From the NCBI RefSeq assembly GCF_023856365.1, contig NC_064548.1, positions 3,571,001-3,635,000 of the forward strand: 64,000 nt of DNA, read 5' to 3'. Position 1 is the first letter of the stretch. The number at the start of each line of letters is the position of its first letter. Both the position numbers and the translations under genes were made by a program. Source of the DNA: Brienomyrus brachyistius (lineage: Eukaryota; Chordata; Actinopteri; Osteoglossiformes; Mormyridae). Positions 21,322 through 58,300 of this stretch are shown one piece after another. The notes below the pieces were generated by a model, which searched no databases, was not told the DNA's origin, and saw only the letters and a list, made by a program, of their open reading frames with translations.

Positions 21322-21521
<200 letters not shown>

Positions 21522-23868: not shown

Positions 23869-24669
23869 GTGAGTGAGCAAAATGTGCCGCTACGGCAGAC
23901 AAAACAGTCCTGTGTCCAAGTAGTTTGCAGGGTTAGGTCTCACCTGGTTCACAGCGCTCACATAAAGTCTTGGGAAGCTTCCTTAATTCTGTCAAAATGT
24001 AACAAATTTATTGGTTTCATAACCAATTAACACTTCTGCACATATCTTGTGCACAGACATTTTCTTTTTATTGTGTCATCATTGTTCAGTTCTGTTCTGG
24101 CAATTTTGCTAATAATTGCAATTGTAATCAGTGGCTCTCAAAGGGATACTAAACACAAATGTTTGGTGTTTTATGTTACTGCAAAGGTGTTACTAATAAA
24201 AATCACCCAGTGAGACTGCTTGTCAATGAACTTTTAAACTCAGAACAGAACTATAATACCTCAGAACAGAACTATGATTATTATTTATTACTATAATTTA
24301 TTACTAGTGCAATTTACTTAAAACTGGTTATTGTTTCTAATGTGATAAATATTTTATGTAATGAATAACATAATTACTTTTTTTATAAGAAAATACATTT
24401 GCAATGTTTGCAATGTTTTTACAAAAAATAAGCAAGCATTCCAAGACTTTCGGTGAGCATTGTAGAAACATGTTATATCTCTTAACATAGCTGTCAGCTG
24501 ATGTTTGTTAAAAATCAGGACATCAGCATCGGTCGGACGTGTCAGTCTTGGCCACTATTGCTGGTCGATATTTAGACTGTAGTTAACATACGAATATACG
24601 GATACTTTCAGCAGCGAATAAAAATAATCATTCACCACGTAGAAGCTCACTACAGTCACTCACTGAGAT

Positions 24670-24985
24670 GCCCAGCCCGACACGCCCGGCCTGTGATGTT
24701 TGGTCTGAGGCGCCCAGCCCGACACGCCTGGCCTGAGATGTTTGGTCTGAGACGCCCGGCCTGAGATGTTTGGTCTGAGACGCCCGGCCTGAGATGTTTG
24801 GTCTGAGACGCCCGGCCTGAGATGTTTGGTCTGAGACGCCCGGCCTGAGATGTTTGGTCTGAGACGCCCGGCCTGAGATGTTTGGTCTGAGACGCCCGGC
24901 CTGAGATGTTTGGTCTGAGACGCCCGGCCTGAGATGTTTGGTCTGAGACGCCCGGCCTGAGATGTTTGGTCTGAGACGCCCGGCC
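24670..24985. repeat. 28-bp minisatellite, about 10 copies
   Basis: The unit is GAGACGCCCGGCCTG followed by AGATGTTTGGTCT. Copies from about 24729 to 24985 are nearly identical; the two at the left edge are diverged (GGCGCCCAGCCCGACACGCC). Because 28 is not a multiple of three, the minus strand gives an artificial repeating open frame, which I reject as a gene. It lies 1.1 kb upstream of the agpat3 start exon. Confidence 0.95.
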
Positions 24986-25104
24986 TCATCTCTGTGTTGG
25001 TGTCCTTTTCAGGCCGAGTACCGAGTTGGTGCTACAATAAAGGACTGTGGTGTAGGTTTCACATTCGTTATCATTGGATTTTTGTCCACAATGATTTATG
25101 AGTG

Positions 25105-36709: not shown

Positions 36710-39700
36710 ATGGAGTCCCATGAGGAGAAGCCAATAATCTACACAATGGAAAACAAGCCAATTGTAACGTGTGAGTATTTCGGTGCAGTTTTAGCCCAGC
36801 TAGCTAGTGCTTTGTGACACTTCAGGCTGTGGGTATCGTCGACTCTCCGCAGCAGTGTGGCCGTCTACCTGATAATGACACCAGACGCCGAGAGAATGTG
36901 CTGGCTTAGGGGGTTACAGGGGCCGGCTAGCGAATTAGGGCGCTGTAATGGACAATAAAGTCTCTGCACCTGTTCTTTAAAGACGCATCTCTTTTGGTTG
37001 CCATTGCGTTGTAGTTTCGCCTGCTGACAGATTGAATGGCCCTCATTTAATACTCCGTAAAGTGACTAAAAGGCTGAGGCCGTGTGTACACACCTTGAGG
37101 TACGGTAGTTAGCTTTGTATTTATTCAGCTTTCGGTTCTGCTAGTAATGTTTCCCAGGAATAAAGAAGTATAGTGTCCGCAGTGTGTCCCTCAAGCTAAC
37201 GAGATGTTCCCCCAGCTATTTAAAATGTTGCCGTACTGCTTATCTGCCTAATTTACCCCTTAACCAAGATACCTTCACTGCTGCCAAACCACCACTGAGT
37301 TAGCAGTTCCCCCAGCTTGGGGATACGTTTGTGAAGTAAAGAGACTAGTCGAGCGTCCAGCTTTTCCTCTGACGTTGCCCAGGTATGATATGAGGCCCGT
37401 GTGCAGATTAAGGAGTATCGGATCGAATCTTCGGAAATGTGTGTGAATGTGCTGCCGAAAAGGAGTGCAGTGCGAGTCATCATAAGGGAAAGCTGACAAT
37501 TCACGACGTTTTCGTTTAAATGCGACGACACCATACTGTATTGTCCTTTTTAACCACAATATGAAAGCAGAGCCGTGCAAATTTAGCTGCCGTCAGGTGT
37601 GCTGGTAGGTCACGCCCTCTAGCATCGAGATCAGGGTGTCTCTTTTGTAACATGTTCCCTGACTCTTTGCTTTGCTGGTGAATATTGTCTTGTTAATGTG
37701 GTGTGAAAACACCCCTCCCTGCAGCTTCCAATTTTTGATGCATGATTGCAGCTCCCCTTCAAGTGTTTTTCTTTTTTTATTAGCCTGATGTCAAAACGGA
37801 ATACACTGTCACTGTGCACCCCAGCTGTAGCATTTGAGACATTTTTAGTAAATAAGATTAAGGGTAAGTCCAAAAAAAGGACATATACTCGTTTGTCTAT
37901 ACCACGTGACTAAGCGAGCTAGTTCAAGCTAAGGATGTAAATGTCTCCATGTGAGGTTGCAAGAGGCCAGGGGCAGCTATGATTAAGATGAACTTTATTG
38001 ATCCCAGGTGGAAATTCTGGCGCACACAGCAGCAAGAACATAGAGCATGGATGAACATATATATAGTGCCAAACAAAGTAAATGTAGTGCAGCTGGAACA
38101 AAGCAGCAGGTTGTATTGTAACAAGATGGTATGGTGTGTTATGGCTGTAGATTGGGAGTGGCACACCTAAGGAGATGATGTGGTGTCTCATGGAGGCAGG
38201 CAGAAATGATCAAGTAGATTTTTTTTAAAGCACGCTGTGATGGAATGAGGCAATGGCTGAATCTGCTTCAGGATAGTGCCCCCTCTGGTCGATGGGCAGA
38301 ATTGTTCATAAAACATCCTCTTCTCTGCTACTGCCTCTAGTTGGCCCAGGGTCAGTCCTGTGATGGAGCTGGCCTTCCTGATGAGTTTTCAGGCTTTTGG
38401 CATCACAGTACTTCCCCAGCAGGCCACAGTGTAGAAAAGCACACTGTCCACTATGGACTGATAAAAGATATGCAGTCCGTAGCTTGGACCAGAGGGTCTT
38501 TTGGTTGGAGTCCCTTATGTGATGCCCTAAGAAAATGTTTTTGGCTTGAGGTGTGGTTATGTATAGAAAACATGACTGCATATAAGACTAGTGGATGAGG
38601 GGGGATGGGTAGAGGATGTGTGTCTATAGTGCGTGTCCCTTAAAAGCCATTTACAAAGTCTCACAGACTTCTGTTTCTGGACTGATATTTAGGTCCTTGG
38701 TGTGGTATTTGAATAAATGGTCAGGCCCAGTGAAGATCTGTTTCACGCATTATTGACTTACTGCATCTCAAAGGAGGGAATCATGAGCTTGAACCCAAAC
38801 CCGTGACTCCTTGACCTCTGCTGGTGTCCCCAGCTTTCAGTGGATACCTGCTGAGTTGTTTCACTCTGCAGCCAATTGTATAATTGGAGGAAAGTGGAAG
38901 ACTGAGTCATATTTAGTCAACAGGGAGGAAGCTTTCTACCATGCTTGTAATTAATGACATTTGACGTCTCTGTGTTATGCTTATTTAGCCATGTCTCATT
39001 CGGCAAAGTCTTGGGCACATGCCTGTTACAACATATCTGGATTGTGAGGAATGTTACTGCTGCAGCATAGCAGTAATTCTGCTGTCTTCAGGGCTGCTGG
39101 ACTTTCACAATGAGTCGGCAGACTGGAATCTTTCGCATGTGATGTTTGTGCAATAATTGTTATGTGGTGGCTCGGCTTAAGTGGCTCGCTGAAGGCTACT
39201 GCGGCAAGCCCCCGGCACTGCTTGGTCAGGTGTTCAGCTCTGTAAGTACTACACCACCTGCTGTCTTTTCGGTGGGATGTTGCCTCGTGTTTTAGAGGTG
39301 GTTTTCTGTCCTGTGAATCGATATTTATTTCTGTTTGTATATATGTGTGTGTGTACAACCAATTTGTGCGTGTTTGTGTGTGTGCGCGCATTTGTTGTCT
39401 TTGATACTTAAAATTTGCTTTAAAGAATAATATCTTTTGACATCCTACAGCATCTGTGTGTGTGTGACCGTATGTGTTGGTGGGAGAAGGGCTCTCATGG
39501 GCATGGGTAAAGATGTTCCTGGAGGTCTGGGCCTGGCTGATGTAGGTTGAGTGGAATGAGGCCCAGTTTGTGCTGTTACCTTTTGCAGGTGCTGGGGACC
39601 AGACCCTGTTCTCGTCTCTCTACAACTCCCTTACCCAGCAGCTGCCCCGGGAGCCCATGGAGTGGAGAAGGTAACAGTACCTGGTGCATGCTGGGAATGA

Positions 39701-46334: not shown

Positions 46335-49300
46335 GTAGAAGGGAATTTTCAAGTTCTGATTTATCAGAAATGTATCGATACATCACAGTGTGCAAATACT
46401 AATAATAATGAATAATATGTGGAATATGTCCTCCTTTTTCTTCAGATAATCCATGAACAGAACACACTGGTCTCCTTGCATTTCAACCAATCATGGTGGT
46501 GACACACCCAGTTCGGTTTGGTCACTCTTTCAGCCCTGCTAGTAAGCAGGGTCACGCCAATTCGGTTACGGCTTGGGTATGGCTCATGTAATTTCCAATG
46601 GGAAACCATTGTCTCTTTGCAGTACAGCTCGGTTCTTGGTGGCAGTGGGAAAGTGCCAAAAGAGATGCTAGTGCTCCTAAATGCATGTTGCTAAGACTGT
46701 GGGAGGAAGCTGAAGTACCCAGAGGAATCTCCTTCAAACGGATAGGGAACCTGAAGGCTGATGGAGCTGGGGGAGGCTGCAGTGCTGGCTTCTGGGCCGT
46801 GCTTTGGATAGGGTTTTTTTTATGATCTGTGGTTTAGTTTGATTTGGGTATGCTAGCCCTGCTCCTCTGAGACAGGTTAGCACTGGTTAATCCCAGCTAA
46901 CTGTGTAAGGGTCATGACCTGGACAAGGAGCCTTTTCTGGGTTAAGATGCTGGATTTAGGGATAAGTTTGACAGTGAGACTTGGGCTTTTTTGCTGCTGA
47001 TTTTATTTTCTGAGTATTTGTACAGTTTTCTCTCTGACCCATTTGTAACTATTTGTAGTGCAGTTTATAGTGTGAAATTAGAATTCGATCATTTTTAGAG
47101 AATTCATAAAAACTGAAACTTTTCTCCATTACATTCAGTCTCCTTAGCCCCCATTTAAAAATGCTCTTCAGTAGTTTTTCTCCTGTACCAAATTTGTCCT
47201 TAAATTTCCCCATTATTTTCGTCATCTTATTCTTCAGTGCATCTTGAATCTTCTACCCCTACTCTTCCTTATACTGTCTTTCTTCCTTCTACCTCTCATC
47301 ATTACTCCACCAGTGTCTCCTGCACACCCTGAGTCAATTGGCTGCATCAGCTGATTTTTCTGTCTTAAATAACACAGGAAGATTATCATGGAATTCAGCC
47401 TTGACAGCCATAACCCTTGTGGTGCCAGACTTTTCCCCAGTCTGGCACGCGTTTCCACCGCAAAATATGGCCCTGGGCCAGAAAAAAACTATTCCAGCAC
47501 GGCACCGCAGAAAAGCTCGACTCAGAATGTGGTACCGTAATGTCAGCAAAAGAGGGACGGGCTACGGCTTCCAGACCTTCCGTAACCCGGACAATTTAAT
47601 CCATAACCGATATAGCTAGTCCATGGTGGTGCTGGCGGTCAAACAACTTGCCAGCTGCTTAGCGGAATAAGGTTGCATCTTTTCTTTTATCGAGAAATAT
47701 GAATCATCGATCTGCTGGCTAGATTTAATAATAAAGCATAAATATGTCGCAGATGGAATAAAATATTATGGCGTTTGCTATCCCCCTCATGATTTCTTCG
47801 CCATTCAGTTTTTTGCATTGTTGCACGATCCTTAAAAGGACAGCAAGTGAATAAACTAACACACACAGAAGGGGGAGCCTTTGCAGGGACAACATGACGT
47901 AAAATAGCTTGAAATAGTATGGATTGTATTTGCTGAGAATAAGATTTTTTAATGTAAAATATTAATTTGCACAAAAACATTTGTATAATTCATATAAATG
48001 ATGCAACATTGCGTAATTTTTTTTATTCTGTGAAAAACGAAAGATTGATCTGCGGGCCAGATTTAATAACAAAGTATAAATGTCAAGTTGAATAAATAAA
48101 ATATTCGTTCGAGTGGCAAAGAGATCGAGGCAGACTGCGATATTTAGTTTTTATTTTATTGTGTGATTCTTGAAAGGACCGTGGTAAAACAGCACCCAAG
48201 AATAATGAATAAACTCACTCACACACAGAGACGGGGAGACTTTCAGGAAACAAAAGTGAATACAGACAATAGAGACTCACACAGTGAGTCATACTCCAAA
48301 CTTTTTTTTCAAAAAAAAACCAAATGCAGATTAACTTTTACTTTACAATGTAACATTTCTGTTCCATTCTTTTTTTAAACTGGTGGAAACACAGACTGGT
48401 TATCAAAAGGCACCAAGTGAGGACCAGCCCAGCACCAGCACCATCTCCATGTTGGTGGAAACGAAGTAATAGTGTGGTCTTGGAGCTCTAATGCCCCCCC
48501 CCCATATCGCCAGGTGTCCGTCCCACAGGGGGCACTGGACTGCTGGGTGTTCCTCAGCTGCTTGGAGGTGCTACAGAGGATCGAGGGCTGCTGTGACCGG
48601 GCCCAGCTGGAGGCTAACAGCTCTCACACCGTGGGCCTGTGGACGTATGCTACTGAAAAGGTGTGTTACAGGCCCCCCCCCACCATGCTACTGAAAAGGT
48701 ATGTTACAGCCCCCCCCCCCACCATGCTACTGAAAAGGTATGTTACAGCCCCCCCCCCACCATGCTACTGAAAAGGTGTGTTACAGGCCCCCCCCCCACC
48801 ATGCTACTGAAAAGGTATGTTACAGCCCCCCCCCCACCATGCTACTGAAAAGGTATGTTACAGCCCCCCCCCCCACCATGCTACTGAAAAGGTATGTTAC
48901 AGCCCCCCCCCCACCATGCTACTGAAAAGGTGTGTTACAGCCCCCCCCCCCCACCATGCTACTGAAAAGGTGTGTTACAGCCCCCCCCCCACCATGCTAC
49001 TGAAAAGGTGTGTTACAGCCCCCCCCCACCATGCTACTGAAAAGGTGTGTTACAGCCCCCCCCCCACCATGCTACTGAAAAGGTGTGTTACAGGCCCCCC
49101 CCCCACCATGCTACTGAAAAGGTATGTTACAGCCCCCCCCCCCACCATGCTACTGAAAAGGTATGTTACAGCCCCCCCCCCACCATGCTACTGAAAAGGT
49201 GTGTTACAGCCCCCCCCCCCCCACCATGCTACTGAAAAGGTGTGTTACAGCCCCCCCCCCACCATGCTACTGAAAAGGTGTGTTACAGCCCCCCCCCCAC

Positions 49301-52300
49301 CATGCTACTGAAAAGGTATGTTACAGCCCCCCCCCCCCACCATGCTACTGAAAAGGTGTGTTACAGCCCCCCCCCCCACCATGCTACTGAAAAGGTGTGT
49401 TACAGGCCCCCCCCCCACCATGCTACTGAAAAGGTGTGTTACAGGCCCCCCCCCCACCATGCTACTGAAAAGGTGTGTTACAGCCCCCCCCCCCCACCAT
49501 GCTACTGAAAAGGTGTGTTACAGCCCCCCCCCCCCACCATGCTACTGAAAAGGTGTGTTACAGCCCCCCCCCCACCATGCTACTGAAAAGGTGTGTTACA
49601 GCCCCCCCCCCCCACCATGCTACTGAAAAGGTGTGTTACAGCCCCCCCCCCACCATGCTACTGAAAAGGTGTGTTACAGGCCCCCCCCCCACCATGCTAC
49701 TGAAAAGGTGTGTTACAGGCCCCCCCCCCACCATGCTACTGAAAAGGTATGTTACAGCCCCCCCCCCCACCATGCTACTGAAAAGGTATGTTACAGCCCC
49801 CCCCCCCACCATGCTACTGAAAAGGTGTGTTACAGCCCCCCCCCCCCACCATGCTACTGAAAAGGTATGTTACAGCCCCCCCCCCACCATGCTACTGAAA
49901 AGGTGTGTTACAGGCCCCCCCCCCACCATGCTACTGAAAAGGTGTGTTACAGCCCCCCCCCCACCATGCTACTGAAAAGGTGTGTTACAGCCCCCCCCCC
50001 CCACCATGCTACTGAAAAGGTGTGTTACAGCCCCCCCCCCCCACCATGCTACTGAAAAGGTGTGTTACAGGCCCCCCCCCCCACCATGCTACTGAAAAGG
50101 TGTGTTACAGCCCCCCCCCCCACCATGCTACTGAAAAGGTGTGTTACAGCCCCCCCCCCCACCATGCTACTGAAAAGGTGTGTTACAGCCCCCCCCCCCA
50201 CCATTCTACTGAAAAGGTGTGTTACAGCCCCCCCCCCCACCATTCTACTGAAAAGGTGTGTTACAGGCCCCCCCCCCACCATGCTACTGAAAAGGTGTGT
50301 TACAGCCCCCCCCCCCACCATGCTACTGAAAAGGTGTGTTACAGCCCCCCCCCCCACCATGCTACTGAAAAGGTGTGTTACAGGCCCCCCCCCCACCATG
50401 CTACTGAAAAGGTGTGTTACAGCCCCCCCCCCCACCATGCTACTGAAAAGGTGTGTTACAGCCCCCCCCCCACCATGCTACTGAAAAGGTGTGTTACAGG
50501 CCCCCCCCCACCATGCTACTGAAAAGGTGTGTTACAGCCCCCCCCCCACCATGCTACTGAAAAGGTGTGTTACAGCCCCCCCCCCACCATGCTACTGAAA
50601 AGGTGTGTTACAGCCCCCCCCCCACCATGCTACTGAAAAGGTGTGTTACAGCCCCCCCCCCACCATGCTACTGAAAAGGTGTGTTACAGCCCCCCCCCCA
50701 CCATGCTACTGAAAAGGTATGTTACAGGCCCCCCCCCACCATGCTACTGAAAAGGTGTGTTACAGGCCCCCCCCACCATGCTACTGAAAAGGTGTGTTAC
50801 AGCCCCCCCCCACCATGCTACTGAAAAGGTATGTTACAGGCCCCCCCCCCACCATGCTACTGAAAAGGTATGTTACAGGCCCCCCCCCCACCATGCTACT
50901 GAAAAGGTATGTTACAGGCCCCCCCCCCACCATGCTACTGAAAAGGTGTGTTACAGCCCCCCCCCACCATGCTACTGAAAAGGTGTGTTACAGGCCCCCC
51001 CCCACCATGCTACTGAAAAGGTGTGTTACAGGCCCCCCCCACCATGCTACTGAAAAGGTGTGTTACAGCCCCCCCCCCACCATGCTACTGAAAAGGTATG
51101 TTACAGGCCCCCCCCCCACCATGCTACTGAAAAGGTGTGTTACAGCCCCCCCCCCACCATGCTACTGAAAAGGTGTGTTACAGCCCCCCCCCACCATGCT
51201 ACTGAAAAGGTATGTTACAGGCCCCCCCCCCCACCATGCTACTGAAAAGGTGTGTTACAGCCCCCCCCCCCCACCATGCTACTGAAAAGGTGTGTTACAG
51301 GCCCCCCCCCCACCATGCTACTGAAAAGGTGTGTTACAGGCCCCCCCCCCCACCATGCTACTGAAAAGGTGTGTTACAGCCCCCCCCCCCACCATGCTAC
51401 TGAAAAGGTGTGTTACAGCCCCCCCCCCCCACCATGCTACTGAAAAGGTATGTTACAGGCCCCCCCCCACCATGCTACTGAAAAGGTGTGTTACAGCCCC
51501 CCCCCCCACCATGCTACTGAAAAGGTGTGTTACAGGCCCCCCCCCCACCATGCTACTGAAAAGGTGTGTTACAGGCCCCCCCCCCACCATGCTACTGAAA
51601 AGGTGTGTTACAGGCCCCCCCCCCCACCATGCTACTGAAAAGGTATGTTACAGGCCCCCCCCCACCATGCTACTGAAAAGGTGTGTTACAGCCCCCCCCC
51701 CCCACCATGCTACTGAAAAGGTGTGTTACAGCCCCCCCCCCCACCATGCTACTGAAAAGGTATGTTACAGCCCCCCCCCCCACCATGCTACTGAAAAGGT
51801 GTGTTACAGGCCCCCCCCCCACCATGCTACTGAAAAGGTGTGTTACAGGCCCCCCCCCCACCATGCTACTGAAAAGGTGTGTTACAGCCCCCCCCCCCAC
51901 CATGCTACTGAAAAGGTGTGTTACAGCCCCCCCCCCCACCATGCTACTGAAAAGGTGTGTTACAGGCCCCCCCCCCCACCATGCTACTGAAAAGGTGTGT
52001 TACAGGCCCCCCCCCCACCATGCTACTGAAAAGGTGTGTTACAGGCCCCCCCCCCACCATGCTACTGAAAAGGTGTGTTACAGGCCCCCCCCCACCATGC
52101 TACTGAAAAGGTGTGTTACAGGCCCCCCCCCACCATGCTACTGAAAAGGTGTGTTACAGCCCCCCCCCCCACCATGCTACTGAAAAGGTGTGTTACAGCC
52201 CCCCCCCCCACCATGCTACTGAAAAGGTGTGTTACAGGCCCCCCCCCCACCATGCTACTGAAAAGGTGTGTTACAGGCCCCCCCCCCACCATGCTACTGA

Positions 52301-55300
52301 AAAGGTATGTTACAGCCCCCCCCCCCCACCATGCTACTGAAAAGGTATGTTACAGCCCCCCCCCCCACCATGCTACTGAAAAGGTGTGTTACAGGCCCCC
52401 CCCCCCACCATGCTACTGAAAAGGTGTGTTACAGGCCCCCCCCCCACCATGCTACTGAAAAGGTGTGTTACAGGCCCCCCCCCACCATGCTACTGAAAAG
52501 GTGTGTTACAGCCCCCCCCCCACCATGCTACTGAAAAGGTGTGTTACAGGCCCCCCCCCCACCATGCTACTGAAAAGGTGTGTTACAGGCCCCCCCCCCA
52601 CCATGCTACTGAAAAGGTGTGTTACAGGCCCCCCCCCCACCATGCTACTGAAAAGGTGTGTTACAGGCCCCCCCCCACCATGCTACTGAAAAGGTGTGTT
52701 ACAGCCCCCCCCCCACCATGCTACTGAAAAGGTGTGTTACAGGCCCCCCCCCACCATGCTACTGAAAAGGTGTGTTACAGCCCCCCCCCTACCATGCTAC
52801 TGAAAAGGTGTGTTACAGGCCCCCCCCCCACCATGCTACTGAAAAGGTGTGTTACAGGCCCCCCCCCCACCATGCTACTGAAAAGGTGTGTTACAGGCCC
52901 CCCCCCCACCATGCTACTGAAAAGGTGTGTTACAGGCCCCCCCCCACCATGCTACTGAAAAGGTGTGTTACAGCCCCCCCCCTACCATGCTACTGAAAAG
53001 GTGTGTTACAGCCCCCCCCCCCCCACCATGCTACTGAAAAGGTGTGTTACAGCCCCACCCCCCCTACCATGCTACTGAAAAGGTGTGTTACAGGCCCCCC
53101 CCCCCACCATGCTACTGAAAAGGTGTGTTACAGGCCCCCCCCCCCACCATGCTACTGAAAAGGTGTGTTACAGGCCCCCCCCCCACACAAACACTACTGA
53201 AAAGGTGTGTTACAGTTTAAATGTTTCCCAGCTGCTAACAGAGATTTACATATGAGGTGACTTGATGGTTAAGCTTCTGGATTTCTGTCCATGGGGGGCA
53301 TGTTTGGTGCTGAGCCTTTGCAGAGCATCAGCAGGTCAGTCTGGATGAGTGTGGATCATTCTGGCGATGCCTTAAAGAACAGAGGCTCCTCTGATTTCCC
53401 CATGACTGTCCCTGCTTTCCTCTGGCCCACAGTTGAAGAGCTTGGGCTACCTTTGTGGCTTAGTGGCGAAAAATGGACCCAATTCGGAGGACCTGAATAA
53501 AACTGTGGACCTGTTGGGTGGGCTGGGGGCTGAGAGACCCGAGACAGGTGAGCAGTTTTGTCACGTCAGTTTTGCATCATTGTGGCCTGGGATTTTGGGG
53601 GAGCATAGATGGGGCAGAATGGTTAAAAGTTAATGGGTCTGATTTCTGTTCTCTTGTAGCCAGCAGCCTTCAGAGCCCTTACAAAAAACTCAAAGAAGCC
53701 TTATCATCTGTGGAATCCTTTGAGAAACACTACCTGGTGGGTATTAACTGGGCTGGCTCGGTACTTCTGCAGTGACGTCTGTGCACTTAGGTGTGCAGCT
53801 GTTGGGGCTTCTAAACCAGGCTGCCCACAGTAATGGGAAACCCTCGGACCTTAGCCCTCTGGGGTCTAGGAGTAGGGAACACATTTTAACTGGCTGGGGC
53901 ATGGTCACACATTTCATTCAGTATCATAAACTTAATTCATGGCAAATAAATTATTTCTTGTATATTTGTTTTGGTGTTAAACTCATCTTAATCTTAGTGT
54001 ACTTTGTAAATATGTCAGATTTATGTGAAGTTTGTAATTTGACATCAAAGAAACATTATAAAAGTACATAGTACGCAATGGTGACAGTTTGTTTTGATCC
54101 CAGATATCTGATCACCAAAGTCTTGGCTACATGAAAATGACTAAATGTTGTAGCTGAAACATTCAGTTGGATAAATAAATAAGAAAAACCTACTTCATGT
54201 CGGTTTTTGTAGCAACTTTCATGTATATGCATGAGCCATTCACACCTGGCCACATCACCCCCCCCTTATGGCGCTGATGGGGATGTATCTGGATCACTGC
54301 GTTTCACTGCTGCGTTGTTCATCTAATTACCATGTGAATGCGATTTAAATACGCGGAAATGCGACTATTTATAATGTGAATAGCGATCTTCGGGTGAAAG
54401 TGGTACTACACGCCCCCGATGCAAGTAAAACAAAGTAAGGTGACATGGTTTACTTTTTTGCTGATTTAACCTAATTCTATAAACTTTATTACTGCCGATA
54501 ATTTATGTTTTGAAAAGATGACAAATTACAGATTTAGTCACCATTTTCATGATTCTACATGAAGATTTCAGCGAGATATAAACTGAAATAGACGTGAAAA
54601 CTATGCTGCGTCGCTGATGACGCACTCGACCCCAGAGGGTTACACCCGGAGCAGGACGCCCATCTTTCAGGCTGAAATGAGTGTCAGGCTTGTGCTGGTT
54701 GCTTACTGGCTAACACTGTGGCTGAGTGTCGACACTGCACCTCGGGATGTGTACCTGACATTCAAGCCCTGTGTTGTCCTCCCCCCCCCCCCCCCCCCCA
54801 GGAGCTCTCTCACACGGCCATGGACATGTACAGGACCATCGGCAGGACACGCTCAGCCCGCCTGATGGGGAAGAGCCTGGCCGAGTTCTACATGTAAGAG
54901 ACTTTGCAGTGAGATACTGTGTGTGTGTGTTTGTCTGTGTGTATCTGCATTATTTACTTGTCCAAGTTGATGTTTCATCAGAATATGTATATGATATTCT
55001 GCAATGTCATGTGAATGAAGGAAAAAAATAATGAAAATTTAACATGGTTAAATTACTGAATTAAATGAATTAATTAAAATTAATGATGCTTGGTTTTAAG
55101 TAGTGCACACAGCTGCAAAAGAATACAGGATTACAGCCACGAGATTCTGCCTTTAGCAGGTGACCCTAAATGATGCCGTGGTAAACTGCAGGTCCAGCTT
55201 GGTCTGATGCAGTAAATGTCCTGCAGCGTATAACTGCTGGAAGCCTTGAGGTTTTTAACGTAGTTCAGACGTTATACAGCAAGTAAATATGAGAGATGCT

Positions 55301-58300
55301 GTCACTGGGGCTGCTGAGTTTGCTGGCGTCTTAAGGCTCTTGTCATTTAGGATGTGAGATGCTTCGTCACCCAGTGACTAAAATAAGTGGATGGCTGGCA
55401 CGCTCCTCTGTTGCGCTCGCAGGAGGAAGGGCGACCCCAAGCGGGCGGAGAGCTTCCTGCAGGACTCTGTGAAGAGCTACCTGAGTGAGGGCTGGGCCCT
55501 GCCTGTGGCACACACCCGCAAGCAGATGGCAGAGTGTCAGAAGCTGCTGGGCCAGACTGAGGAGTATCCTGCTGGGGGCATCACAGCTATGTCTCTGTTG
55601 ATGTCTATGTTAGTGTAATCACCCCCTCCTCCCACCCCCTGAAAAGGTGTACTACAGCCCACCTCCCACCCCCCCATGAGGTGTGAGGTGTTGGGTCTGT
55701 CTGTCTCTGCGTCTGTCTGTCTCTGCCTGTGGCTCCGCTTGGTTTCTTTGACCTCTTGCACAGCTACCTGCAGACCAGCGCCCTGCTAGCCAGCGACAGC
55801 CACCTGACCGACAGCGAGAGGAAGCATTTCTGCCAGGAGATCCTCAGCTTCGCCGGCCAGTCAGCCGGTACAGGTGGCCGTGTGTGTGTGTATCTGCGGG
55901 AGTGGGGCCTCGTGGGGGCAGGGCAAAGCCATCCGAACACTGTGTCTCCCCCCTCCTCACAGGCCACAAGGTAATCCTGAACATGAGCTCGTTTGCTCAG
56001 TTACGGCAGCTGCAGTTTCGGCCGGCGGCAGCTGTGGTGCACGTCGGTGCGTCCCTGCAGCTCGAGCTGCGTCTGCGCAGCCTGATGCCTGTACCGGTTC
56101 GCCTGGAGCAGCTGGCCATCACTGTGCACTTCAGTCTAGAGAAAGGTGGGACTTGGGGCCGGGCGGGGCCTGGGGGCGGAGCCCCCCGTCGCACAGGGCA
56201 GGGCAGCCCGGGCGGTGCGGTGCAGTTCCCTGGAGAGAGCCCCCCCGGCTCCCACCCCCGAACACCGCCTCCCACCCTTGAGCTGTATGAGATGCAGGAC
56301 CGCAGCCCTTCGGACGGGGTGCTCAACTCCACCGGCGTCGTCTGCAAGAATGTGCACCTGCTGCTGCGTCGCCAGGACAGCGCCGTTTCCTTGGACACGC
56401 CCAGTGTGAACACCATCGCCATGGAAGACGGGGCCCAGCTGCTGAAGACACATGATGTGTCACTGTTGCCTGGCAACAACGACATCCTTTTCACAGCTCC
56501 CGTAAGCCTGCTGCCTTGTTACTGTATAGTGGTCATTAGTACTTTATTATTAATATTTTGATGTAGTGGCATTTTCAAATCCTTTGGCTAGAAACAGTCA
56601 GACAGTGGCACTTCCTATTACATGAAAGTTTAGAGCGGTGTTTCGTAAAAGCATAGTTAATGTCAGTAACTTGCATAGCTGGAATCATGCAGCTAACTGG
56701 GTTGCCAATAGGAGCTCTTGGGAAATGCACATCTGGTCTTGATGGACCCCCAGACAGTCCACATTTGTGCCTCCTGCCAGACAGTCCACATTTGTGCCTC
56801 CTGCCAGACTATGCATTTTTAGGGAGCTGTGAGGGAGTGAAAACATGGACTGTCTGGGGTCCCTGAGGACCGGGGTGGGAAATCTGCTTTAGGATAACAG
56901 CAGTGCTAATGGGTGAAGTATATTAGAGCCAAAAGACAGAAGTAAAGATCTACAGTTTTCATAGGTGACCATATAGTCACTGGCTGAGCAGGCCAACCAT
57001 CGTCATGCCGGAGGAGTGAGTGTTTATGAATCTTGCTAAATTCTCTTGTTGCTGCTATTGGTAATGCTCTCATTGTAGTCTTATACACTGCCCCCCCCCA
57101 CAGAGTCAGGAGCCAGGCACCTATACTCTGAGGCAGCTTTGTGCCACTGTGGGTCAGGTCCAGTTCGTGCTGCCCCACATCTACCCCATAGTGCAGTATG
57201 AGGTATATTCCCAAGAGCCACAGCTCACCGTGGAGCCCCTAGCAGGTCTGTCTCTCTCTTCGCATCTCCATTCCTCTCCTAGGAGGTTCTGCTAAGACAA
57301 ACTCACCCGGCGCCATCTCGCCGACTCGTGGCACTATACTGGAGTCAGCCCTCTGTGTGCCTCTGTGTCCTAGACAACCTTGTGGCCGGCCTGCCCCAGA
57401 CGGTCAAGTTCACCGTCGTCACAGGTCACTACAGCATCAAGCGGGGCGATGCACTGCAGCTCAGCAACTCGGACAGCATGCCCATTCTGCCGGCGCCGCG
57501 CTGCACTGCTCGCGTGCTCTCCAGTACCGCCGGTGAGTCCCGTCCGGCTCGCGGGGGACTTCCGCTCCTCTCTGCCACTGTCCACAACCTGCATGACCTG
57601 CCCTGTCTGCCCTTCCCTTCTACAGAGCTTGTAACGGAGACAGTCCTCTCCATCCAGTCCTCGGAGAAGGTAACCAGCATCTCGCTGCCTCTGGCACCAC
57701 CCTACCACACCGTGGAGTTCCAGCTGGTGGTGCTGTGCCACGTTCCAGCCGGCCCGGTGCGGCCCGACCCTGAGCGGCTCACCAATGGAGAGCCATGGCA
57801 TCGGCCCCGCAGCCGCCTGCGCACCCACAGCGGCATGATCACCTTGGACCAGAAGGTGCTGAACCTGATGCTGCTTTTCCATTCGTCTCTGGGTTGGCTA
57901 AATACCTACTTGTAAAACAGCCAGATGTTTGGGATGAATTTAGCAGCCAAAGCTGAGTGAAACTCTCCTGATTGGTCGGCCTGGCTGTCTCTTATGGCAT
58001 CCTAATGCCTGATTGGTGGTGTACATGTCTTAACTGTGTGACCCTCCTGCTGCCCACAGATCTCCATAGACTGCCCATGGTCTATTTACTCCACACTGGT
58101 GGCGTTAACTTTCTACATCCCCTTCAAAGCCAAGCACTCGCTACTGTCTGCAGGGAAGAGGTAAAACCTCAAGTAATTAATATTGTTAAAATTTCAAATA
58201 CTTTGATCCACCAGCCTCCCACCTGCTGATCTGACCCTCGATTCAAACCCACAGGAAGTACGTGCAGGTGTGCCTGCAGAACGTCTCGGATATGAACTTC

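Follow-up and report, generated by a model that had tools for sequence, protein, structure and literature searches.

The 64,000-nt stretch of Brienomyrus brachyistius DNA considered here (RefSeq assembly GCF_023856365.1, contig NC_064548.1, positions 3,571,001 to 3,635,000 of the forward strand; hereafter, the window, whose own numbering is used) carries trappc10, a gene in which the junction between exon 8 and intron 8, donor site included, has become the unit of a tandem array of 118 copies. Tandem repeats of exon/intron boundaries are known as mirages, and we consider it likely that this one is a lineage-specific mirage minisatellite, grown and homogenized by ordinary repeat turnover and tolerated within the intron. 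According to this proposal, a stretch of 14 exon and 11 intron bases around the exon 8 donor would have been duplicated along with filler rich in C. Further copies would have been added by local duplication (through unequal exchange or slippage), which the C/G run of each unit may have facilitated, while homogenization or recent regrowth would hold the copies close to identity. Transcripts would include the array and lose it when intron 8 is spliced out, in most cases from the first donor, probably by way of exon definition. The use of a downstream copy would lead to a premature stop and, for this reason, such RNA would presumably undergo nonsense-mediated decay instead of yielding a new protein; a modest splicing cost is possible. 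The elements involved are as follows:

48514..48660, forward strand: trappc10 coding exon 8, 147 nt (49 codons), ending in Tyr-Ala-Thr-Glu-Lys, as given by the junction solution against the annotated protein P0001.
48647..48671, forward strand: founder junction, made of the 14 terminal exon bases plus GTGTGTTACAG, with the authentic donor GT at 48661-48662.
48647..53215, forward strand: minisatellite array of 118 junction copies, the authentic one included, at a spacing of 37-42 bp (Tandem Repeats Finder and parse).
48661..53432, forward strand: intron 8, 4772 nt (4555 nt of array and a remainder of 217 nt), from the junction solution.
53191..53215, forward strand: last copy, with the upstream ATG changed to ACA and no C run after TTACAG, continuing into the residual 217 nt of intron 8.
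53433..53547, forward strand: trappc10 coding exon 9, starting with Leu-Lys-Ser-Leu-Gly, from the junction solution.

The gene was identified by using joined exon translations as a query, which retrieved TRAPPC10 proteins, the best being P0001, named by NCBI as B. brachyistius TRAPPC10 isoform X2 (an 89% match in that search, the query lacking some pieces), in which Pfam recognized TRAPPC10 domains. Junctions were solved by requiring an exact match between the translation of the joined DNA and part of P0001. This succeeded for 18 of the 20 junctions attempted, a set that did not include intron 1, and failed for introns 11 and 18; because the first coding exon matched at 36710, the exon in question was numbered as coding exon 8. 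Within the search range, the join of 48660 to 53433 was the sole GT-AG solution translating to the corresponding piece of P0001, which has an ordinary YATEK-LKSLG join. The position of intron 8 looks old, since homologous sequences read Val right after the last Lys of the exon, as a GT donor at that point would encode. A search for a solved structure covering the 143-residue part after the junction gave none at E 0.001. In this same gene, pure C runs (10, 19 and 9 C) form the polypyrimidine tracts of the acceptors of introns 7, 10 and 14 (48489-48513, 54777-54801 and 57079-57103).

As for the array itself, Tandem Repeats Finder reported one tandem array (period 39, 117.6 copies, 96% matches), and a direct parse resolved it into the authentic exon 8 donor and 117 extra junctions inside intron 8. 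The observation, made in an initial annotation from the letters alone, that the unit is the exon 8/intron 8 junction itself was confirmed: the exon end is fixed by the protein match, and 25 nt of the unit, ATGCTACTGAAAAG/GTGTGTTACAG (the slash marking the splice point, here and below), correspond to exon end and intron start. The array is thus real, although the annotation placed about 118 copies after the true donor and only 117 follow it, 118 being reached by counting the authentic junction. A 22-nt core, CTACTGAAAAGGT[A/G]TGTTACAG, whose first copy starts at 48650 and whose last copy ends at 53215, is invariant across the 118 copies save for one A/G site at donor position +3 (G in 96, A in 22), giving GTGTGT in 96 copies and GTATGT in 22 (19%). 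No further core copy was found in the window within three substitutions, nor on the opposite strand within four. AAAAG/GT is kept in 118 of 118 units; the 14 terminal exon bases assigned to the unit, ATGCTACTGAAAAG, are complete in 115 when counted from the unit tails, with ATG altered to ATT in two copies and to ACA in the last one. The spacers between cores comprise at most one G, 8-13 consecutive C (in 116 of the 118 units) and ACCATG (in 111). On the minus strand, a mean G4Hunter score of 0.98 and 116 G runs of at least 8 suggest that the G-rich strand of the array is fragile.

The exact 25-mer of the junction occurs in 93 places in the 985-Mb genome, all of them inside the array, and in none when the backwards control is searched, so the array is not a chance occurrence. 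The 331-bp flank that follows the array was found in one place in the genome, and as a probe for a second haplotype with an empty intron it matched this locus only.

The copies were then compared with real splice sites of the gene. A position weight matrix (PWM) for donors was built from the other 17 solved donors, a small set in which real donors were scored leave-one-out; AAG/GTGTGT (8.11) and AAG/GTATGT (8.28) both exceed 13 of the 17 real donors, and a score of 8.11 was reached by just 3 of the 754 other GTs in the solved introns. The predicted duplex with the end of U1 has an energy of -6.2 kcal/mol for GTGTGT and -6.8 for GTATGT, within the range of the 18 real donors (-4.1 to -11.1), six of which are weaker than the former and nine weaker than the latter. 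Taken alone, the U1 energy is less distinctive, as about 36 of the 754 other GTs (4.8%) bind as well as GTGTGT. Judged by sequence, the array copies would be credible, middling donors, each as good as the authentic one, as had been claimed. GTATGT does score higher, but it would be only slightly better and is restricted to 22 of the 118 copies. The idea that the array might be a sink for U1 was rejected as implausible, since a cell contains close to a million U1 molecules, vastly more than the sites offered by a few pre-mRNAs with 117 each.

That decoys score like real donors is in line with another explanation, namely that the array acts on splicing: by binding U1 and competing with the true donor, the 117 decoys would delay the excision of intron 8 or divert part of the RNA into decay, and trappc10 output would thus be tuned by copy number, a role compatible with the identity of the array as a mirage. 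It would also fit with the stop carried by every decoy product (see below) and with the short intron, of 228 nt, that the last copy would define if used as a donor. Published precedents include the decoy exons reported to favor the retention of long introns, that of OGT among them, and to hold back their splicing (PMC12017769), the two downstream repeat units reported to serve as donors in human IFI6 (PMC4526556), and the over-representation of a C. elegans minisatellite near alternative splicing (PMC4039745). The trappc10 array and the OGT decoys have in common the presence of non-productive donors within an intron; however, the latter are pseudo-exons with splice sites of both kinds, including U2AF-bound 3' splice sites, and have been experimentally tested (PMC12017769), whereas the acceptors of the array score low. 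In addition, splicing has been reported or argued to be undisturbed by the amphioxus mirages (PMC3087553, PMC3902484). We regard an effect of this kind on trappc10 as rather unlikely.

The low scores of the acceptors were obtained with two sequences of the unit. No solved acceptor scores as low as TTACAG (mean -11.0; the 18 acceptors range from -3.8 to 20.7 when scored leave-one-out), and 78% of 648 non-acceptor AGs equal or beat it; the proposed micro-exons of 25-30 nt opened by this hexamer were rejected on that score. The TACTGA put forward as their branch point would not help, given that a distance of about 15 nt between branch point and acceptor is short. AAAAG/G fared better (mean 0.6), exceeding 3 of the 18 solved acceptors, and this, together with the C runs that precede the acceptors of introns 7, 10 and 14, lends something to a third explanation, in which the segment from the first donor to any later AAAAG/GT is excised in a nested or recursive manner, leaving the same donor behind, so that a wrong choice could be spliced again. 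By construction, the correct join of exon 8 to exon 9 is recovered after GT...AG excision to each of the later copies (117 of 117), and 116 of the 117 introns so defined measure at least 70 nt. The array would then behave as a self-correcting ladder, with U1 on many of the 118 donors, stepwise AG/GT removal and one correct mRNA whichever donor was used first; if this were true, errors within the array could be undone, a reason for it to be tolerated and perhaps even retained. Against this stand the C or T, never A, found at position -3 of 18 of 18 solved acceptors, the 10.8% of the 648 non-acceptor AGs that score as high as AAAAG/G, and the fact that the portions of the amphioxus literature consulted make no mention of recursive removal for mirages (PMC3087553, PMC3902484). 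On the sequences at hand, both the micro-exons and the ladder appear to be weak ideas, and we hold recursive removal, and the ladder built upon it, to be very improbable.

The consequences for the protein are more uniform. Whichever of the 117 later donors is used, a stop is reached no later than the end of exon 10 (117 of 117), although length keeps the frame in 37 cases; a stop-free lengthened exon is obtained only with copies 2 and 3, both of which shift the frame (by 38 and 77 nt), and if intron 8 were read through in full, translation would stop 108 nt after its start. Consequently, no gain in protein variety is to be expected from a lengthened exon 8, and the suggestion that the array makes exon 8 length and protein variable was discarded. 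Micro-exons running from TTACAG to AAAAG would be in frame and free of stops in 39 of 117 units, but they would need the poor acceptor described above, and 115 of the 117 motif-bearing homologs described below have LK or LR after the motif, array-like residues being found, among the matches listed, in a single model. Protein variants from either source are therefore hardly credible to us, and the array is most likely harmless to the protein.

That single model came from a survey of TRAPPC10 homologs, in which 120 of 692 matches were listed. A motif similar to YATEK is present in 117 of these 120 (P0011, P0012 and P0014 lack it) and is followed by LK or LR in 115 of the 117, the exceptions being P0005 and P0006, both from Paramormyrops kingsleyae. 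Among the matches listed, only P0006 has array-like residues after the motif: it reads YATEK and then VRYSPPTMLLRRCVTAPPPC. For these 20 residues, the best match in the window lies in the array (15 of 20), while the best of 100 shuffles reached 10. P0006 departs from the array at PPPC, a point at which the units of the window go on with Tyr-stop in 111 of 112 cases, and both P0005 and P0006 lack the residues of exons 9-11, passing from exon 8 (in P0006, with the array-like residues added) to the sequence before exon 12. Because of this exit and of the missing residues, the gap in the P. kingsleyae models is perhaps due to an assembly break within a long array. A region search with the array-like stretch matched only P0005 and P0006. 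When exon 8 with intron read-through was used as a query, none of the 34 proteins retrieved had array-like residues, 30 of them extending at least 13 residues past the junction, three fewer, and one lacking the motif; outside mormyrids, no array was seen in what the protein searches reached. As the P. kingsleyae model reads into array-like residues, the array would, most simply, be older than the split between Brienomyrus and Paramormyrops. An empty intron site elsewhere, with GTGTGTTACAG joined directly to TTTAAATG, would support the proposed origin. The P. kingsleyae model also bears on the possibility that the array or its apparent length was created by the assembly. Long arrays with homopolymers are hard to assemble, and a single assembly is the source of both copy number and C-run lengths; nevertheless, the window has no N, variants are interspersed along the array, and array-like residues appear in the protein model of a second species, and we find an artefact very unlikely.

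With regard to turnover, the 2478 core sites show no private change, which, if the copies evolved apart, places a bound of 0.12% (95%) on their divergence. Such near-zero divergence in an array that would predate the split of the genera points to homogenization or recent regrowth. The core is homogeneous in the 118 copies, with a deviant last unit, while some different residues are implied for P. kingsleyae by its protein model, the comparison being one of protein with DNA. Adjacent units are more alike than in shuffles (p 0.0006 for lag 1 and p 0.0018 for lag 7); of the 30 lags, 1, 6, 7, 27 and 28 fall below p 0.02, and, once the choice among 30 is allowed for, lag 1 alone is clearly beyond the 95% line, with lag 7 about on it. 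A search for long repeated blocks of exact units gave a longest block of 4, equaled or exceeded in 110 of 300 shuffles, and the case for local duplication thus depends on the lag test.

Several points weigh against the array being a tolerated product of repeat turnover with normal use of the first donor. The evidence for normal splicing in B. brachyistius is an annotated protein, P0001; that from P. kingsleyae is a predicted protein, not DNA, and the array may have arisen there independently. The array copies match the authentic donor in strength, and competition experiments often show a preference for the donor nearer to the acceptor. In predicted folding, the true donor is slightly less open, with a mean unpaired value of 0.27, compared to 0.34-0.45 for the next seven copies, and copies 2 to 4 would produce exons of 185, 224 and 262 nt, sizes that would not by themselves rule out the first decoys. 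Lastly, variable positions amount to 1 of 22 in the core and to 4-5 of 17 elsewhere (hand count); the Fisher test for selection on the core was not significant (p 0.15-0.07), a hint, at that level, that donor copies might be kept by selection.

The term mirage was coined for amphioxus Adh3, and further cases have been described in TnC, globins (BflGb6/BflGb9) and PGBD5; AG/GT signals are contained in many of their repeats, and length instability and concerted evolution have been reported for some, the latter for BflGb6 (PMC3087553, PMC3902484). In trappc10, the unit spans the exon/intron boundary (14 exon plus 11 intron bases plus filler) and contains splice signals, as indicated by AAAAG/GT in 118 of 118 units and by the donor scores, so that in anatomy the array qualifies as a mirage. 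Both are minisatellite-like copies of a boundary, and the 39 bp of the trappc10 unit lie within the 10-72 bp range of Adh3 units. In contrast, amphioxus BflGb6 has 6 and 3 copies in two haplotypes, of 150-160 bp and 81-100% identical, compared to about 118 copies in trappc10, and the trappc10 array is found in a teleost and has a C run in each unit. It is, therefore, an unusually large case of an already known oddity.

Other systems are related to a lesser extent. The minisatellite of human IFI6 differs in its unit, reportedly of 12 bp. Its repeat units, like those of trappc10, supply several donors (G1P3, 6-16; Turri et al. 1995), but two downstream ones are reported to be used to produce isoforms, whereas each alternative donor in trappc10 gives a stop. 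Tandem duplication of AGGT can create introns, as proposed by Rogers in 1989 and exemplified by ATP2A1, 24-bp repeats in fission yeast and potato RdRp (PMC4974935); there too, tandem AG/GT copies are possible as both 3' and 5' splice sites, although the trappc10 array lengthens an existing intron and no new intron has been shown. Intron 1 of Sparus aurata myostatin-2, likewise from a fish, contains repeated blocks and additional predicted splice sites, but its blocks are allelic and, in the part of that report considered, a unit spanning an exon/intron boundary is not described (PMC3045353). Human tandem repeats from segmental duplications that make new introns were judged less close (PMC2812944).

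The trappc10 array thus puts a mirage in a teleost, next to the amphioxus cases and the human IFI6 cousin retrieved in portions of open-licence literature, the scope of a search that makes an earlier vertebrate report possible. Studies of competition between identical 5' splice sites have used a few engineered copies, and trappc10 offers a natural vertebrate series of 118 donors, in effect a splice-site competition experiment. As 93 copies are identical over 25 nt, for them only position and wider context can mark the true donor. Copy-number alleles of the array would provide a dose series, and RNA from the fish would measure how strict the choice of the first site is.

In the genome at large, 54 arrays with a period of at least 10 were counted in 200 kb (20 contigs, one 10-kb stretch each), covering 15,206 bases, that is, 7.6% of the sample, at 270 arrays per Mb, and AGGT followed by A or G, on either strand, was present in the units of 6 of the 54. 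Consequently, neither arrays nor donor-like words within them are rare in B. brachyistius, and what sets trappc10 apart is the presence, within the array, of its own exon's functional donor. A genome-wide search for donor-like arrays, using three repeats of AGGTRNGT, found 1665 + 1895 places (which overlap within arrays) compared to 9190 + 8624 for the backwards control, hence no excess. Other repeats were noted in passing: in the window, a GC-rich array with 42-bp and 28-bp units at 24663-24986, the 28-bp one matching at 99% over 24724-24986, and a perfect TC dinucleotide run of 96.5 copies at 21326-21518; elsewhere in the genome (C1:1584473-1584975), a 45-bp repeat with AGGTGGGT, whose length is a multiple of three and which could be coding.

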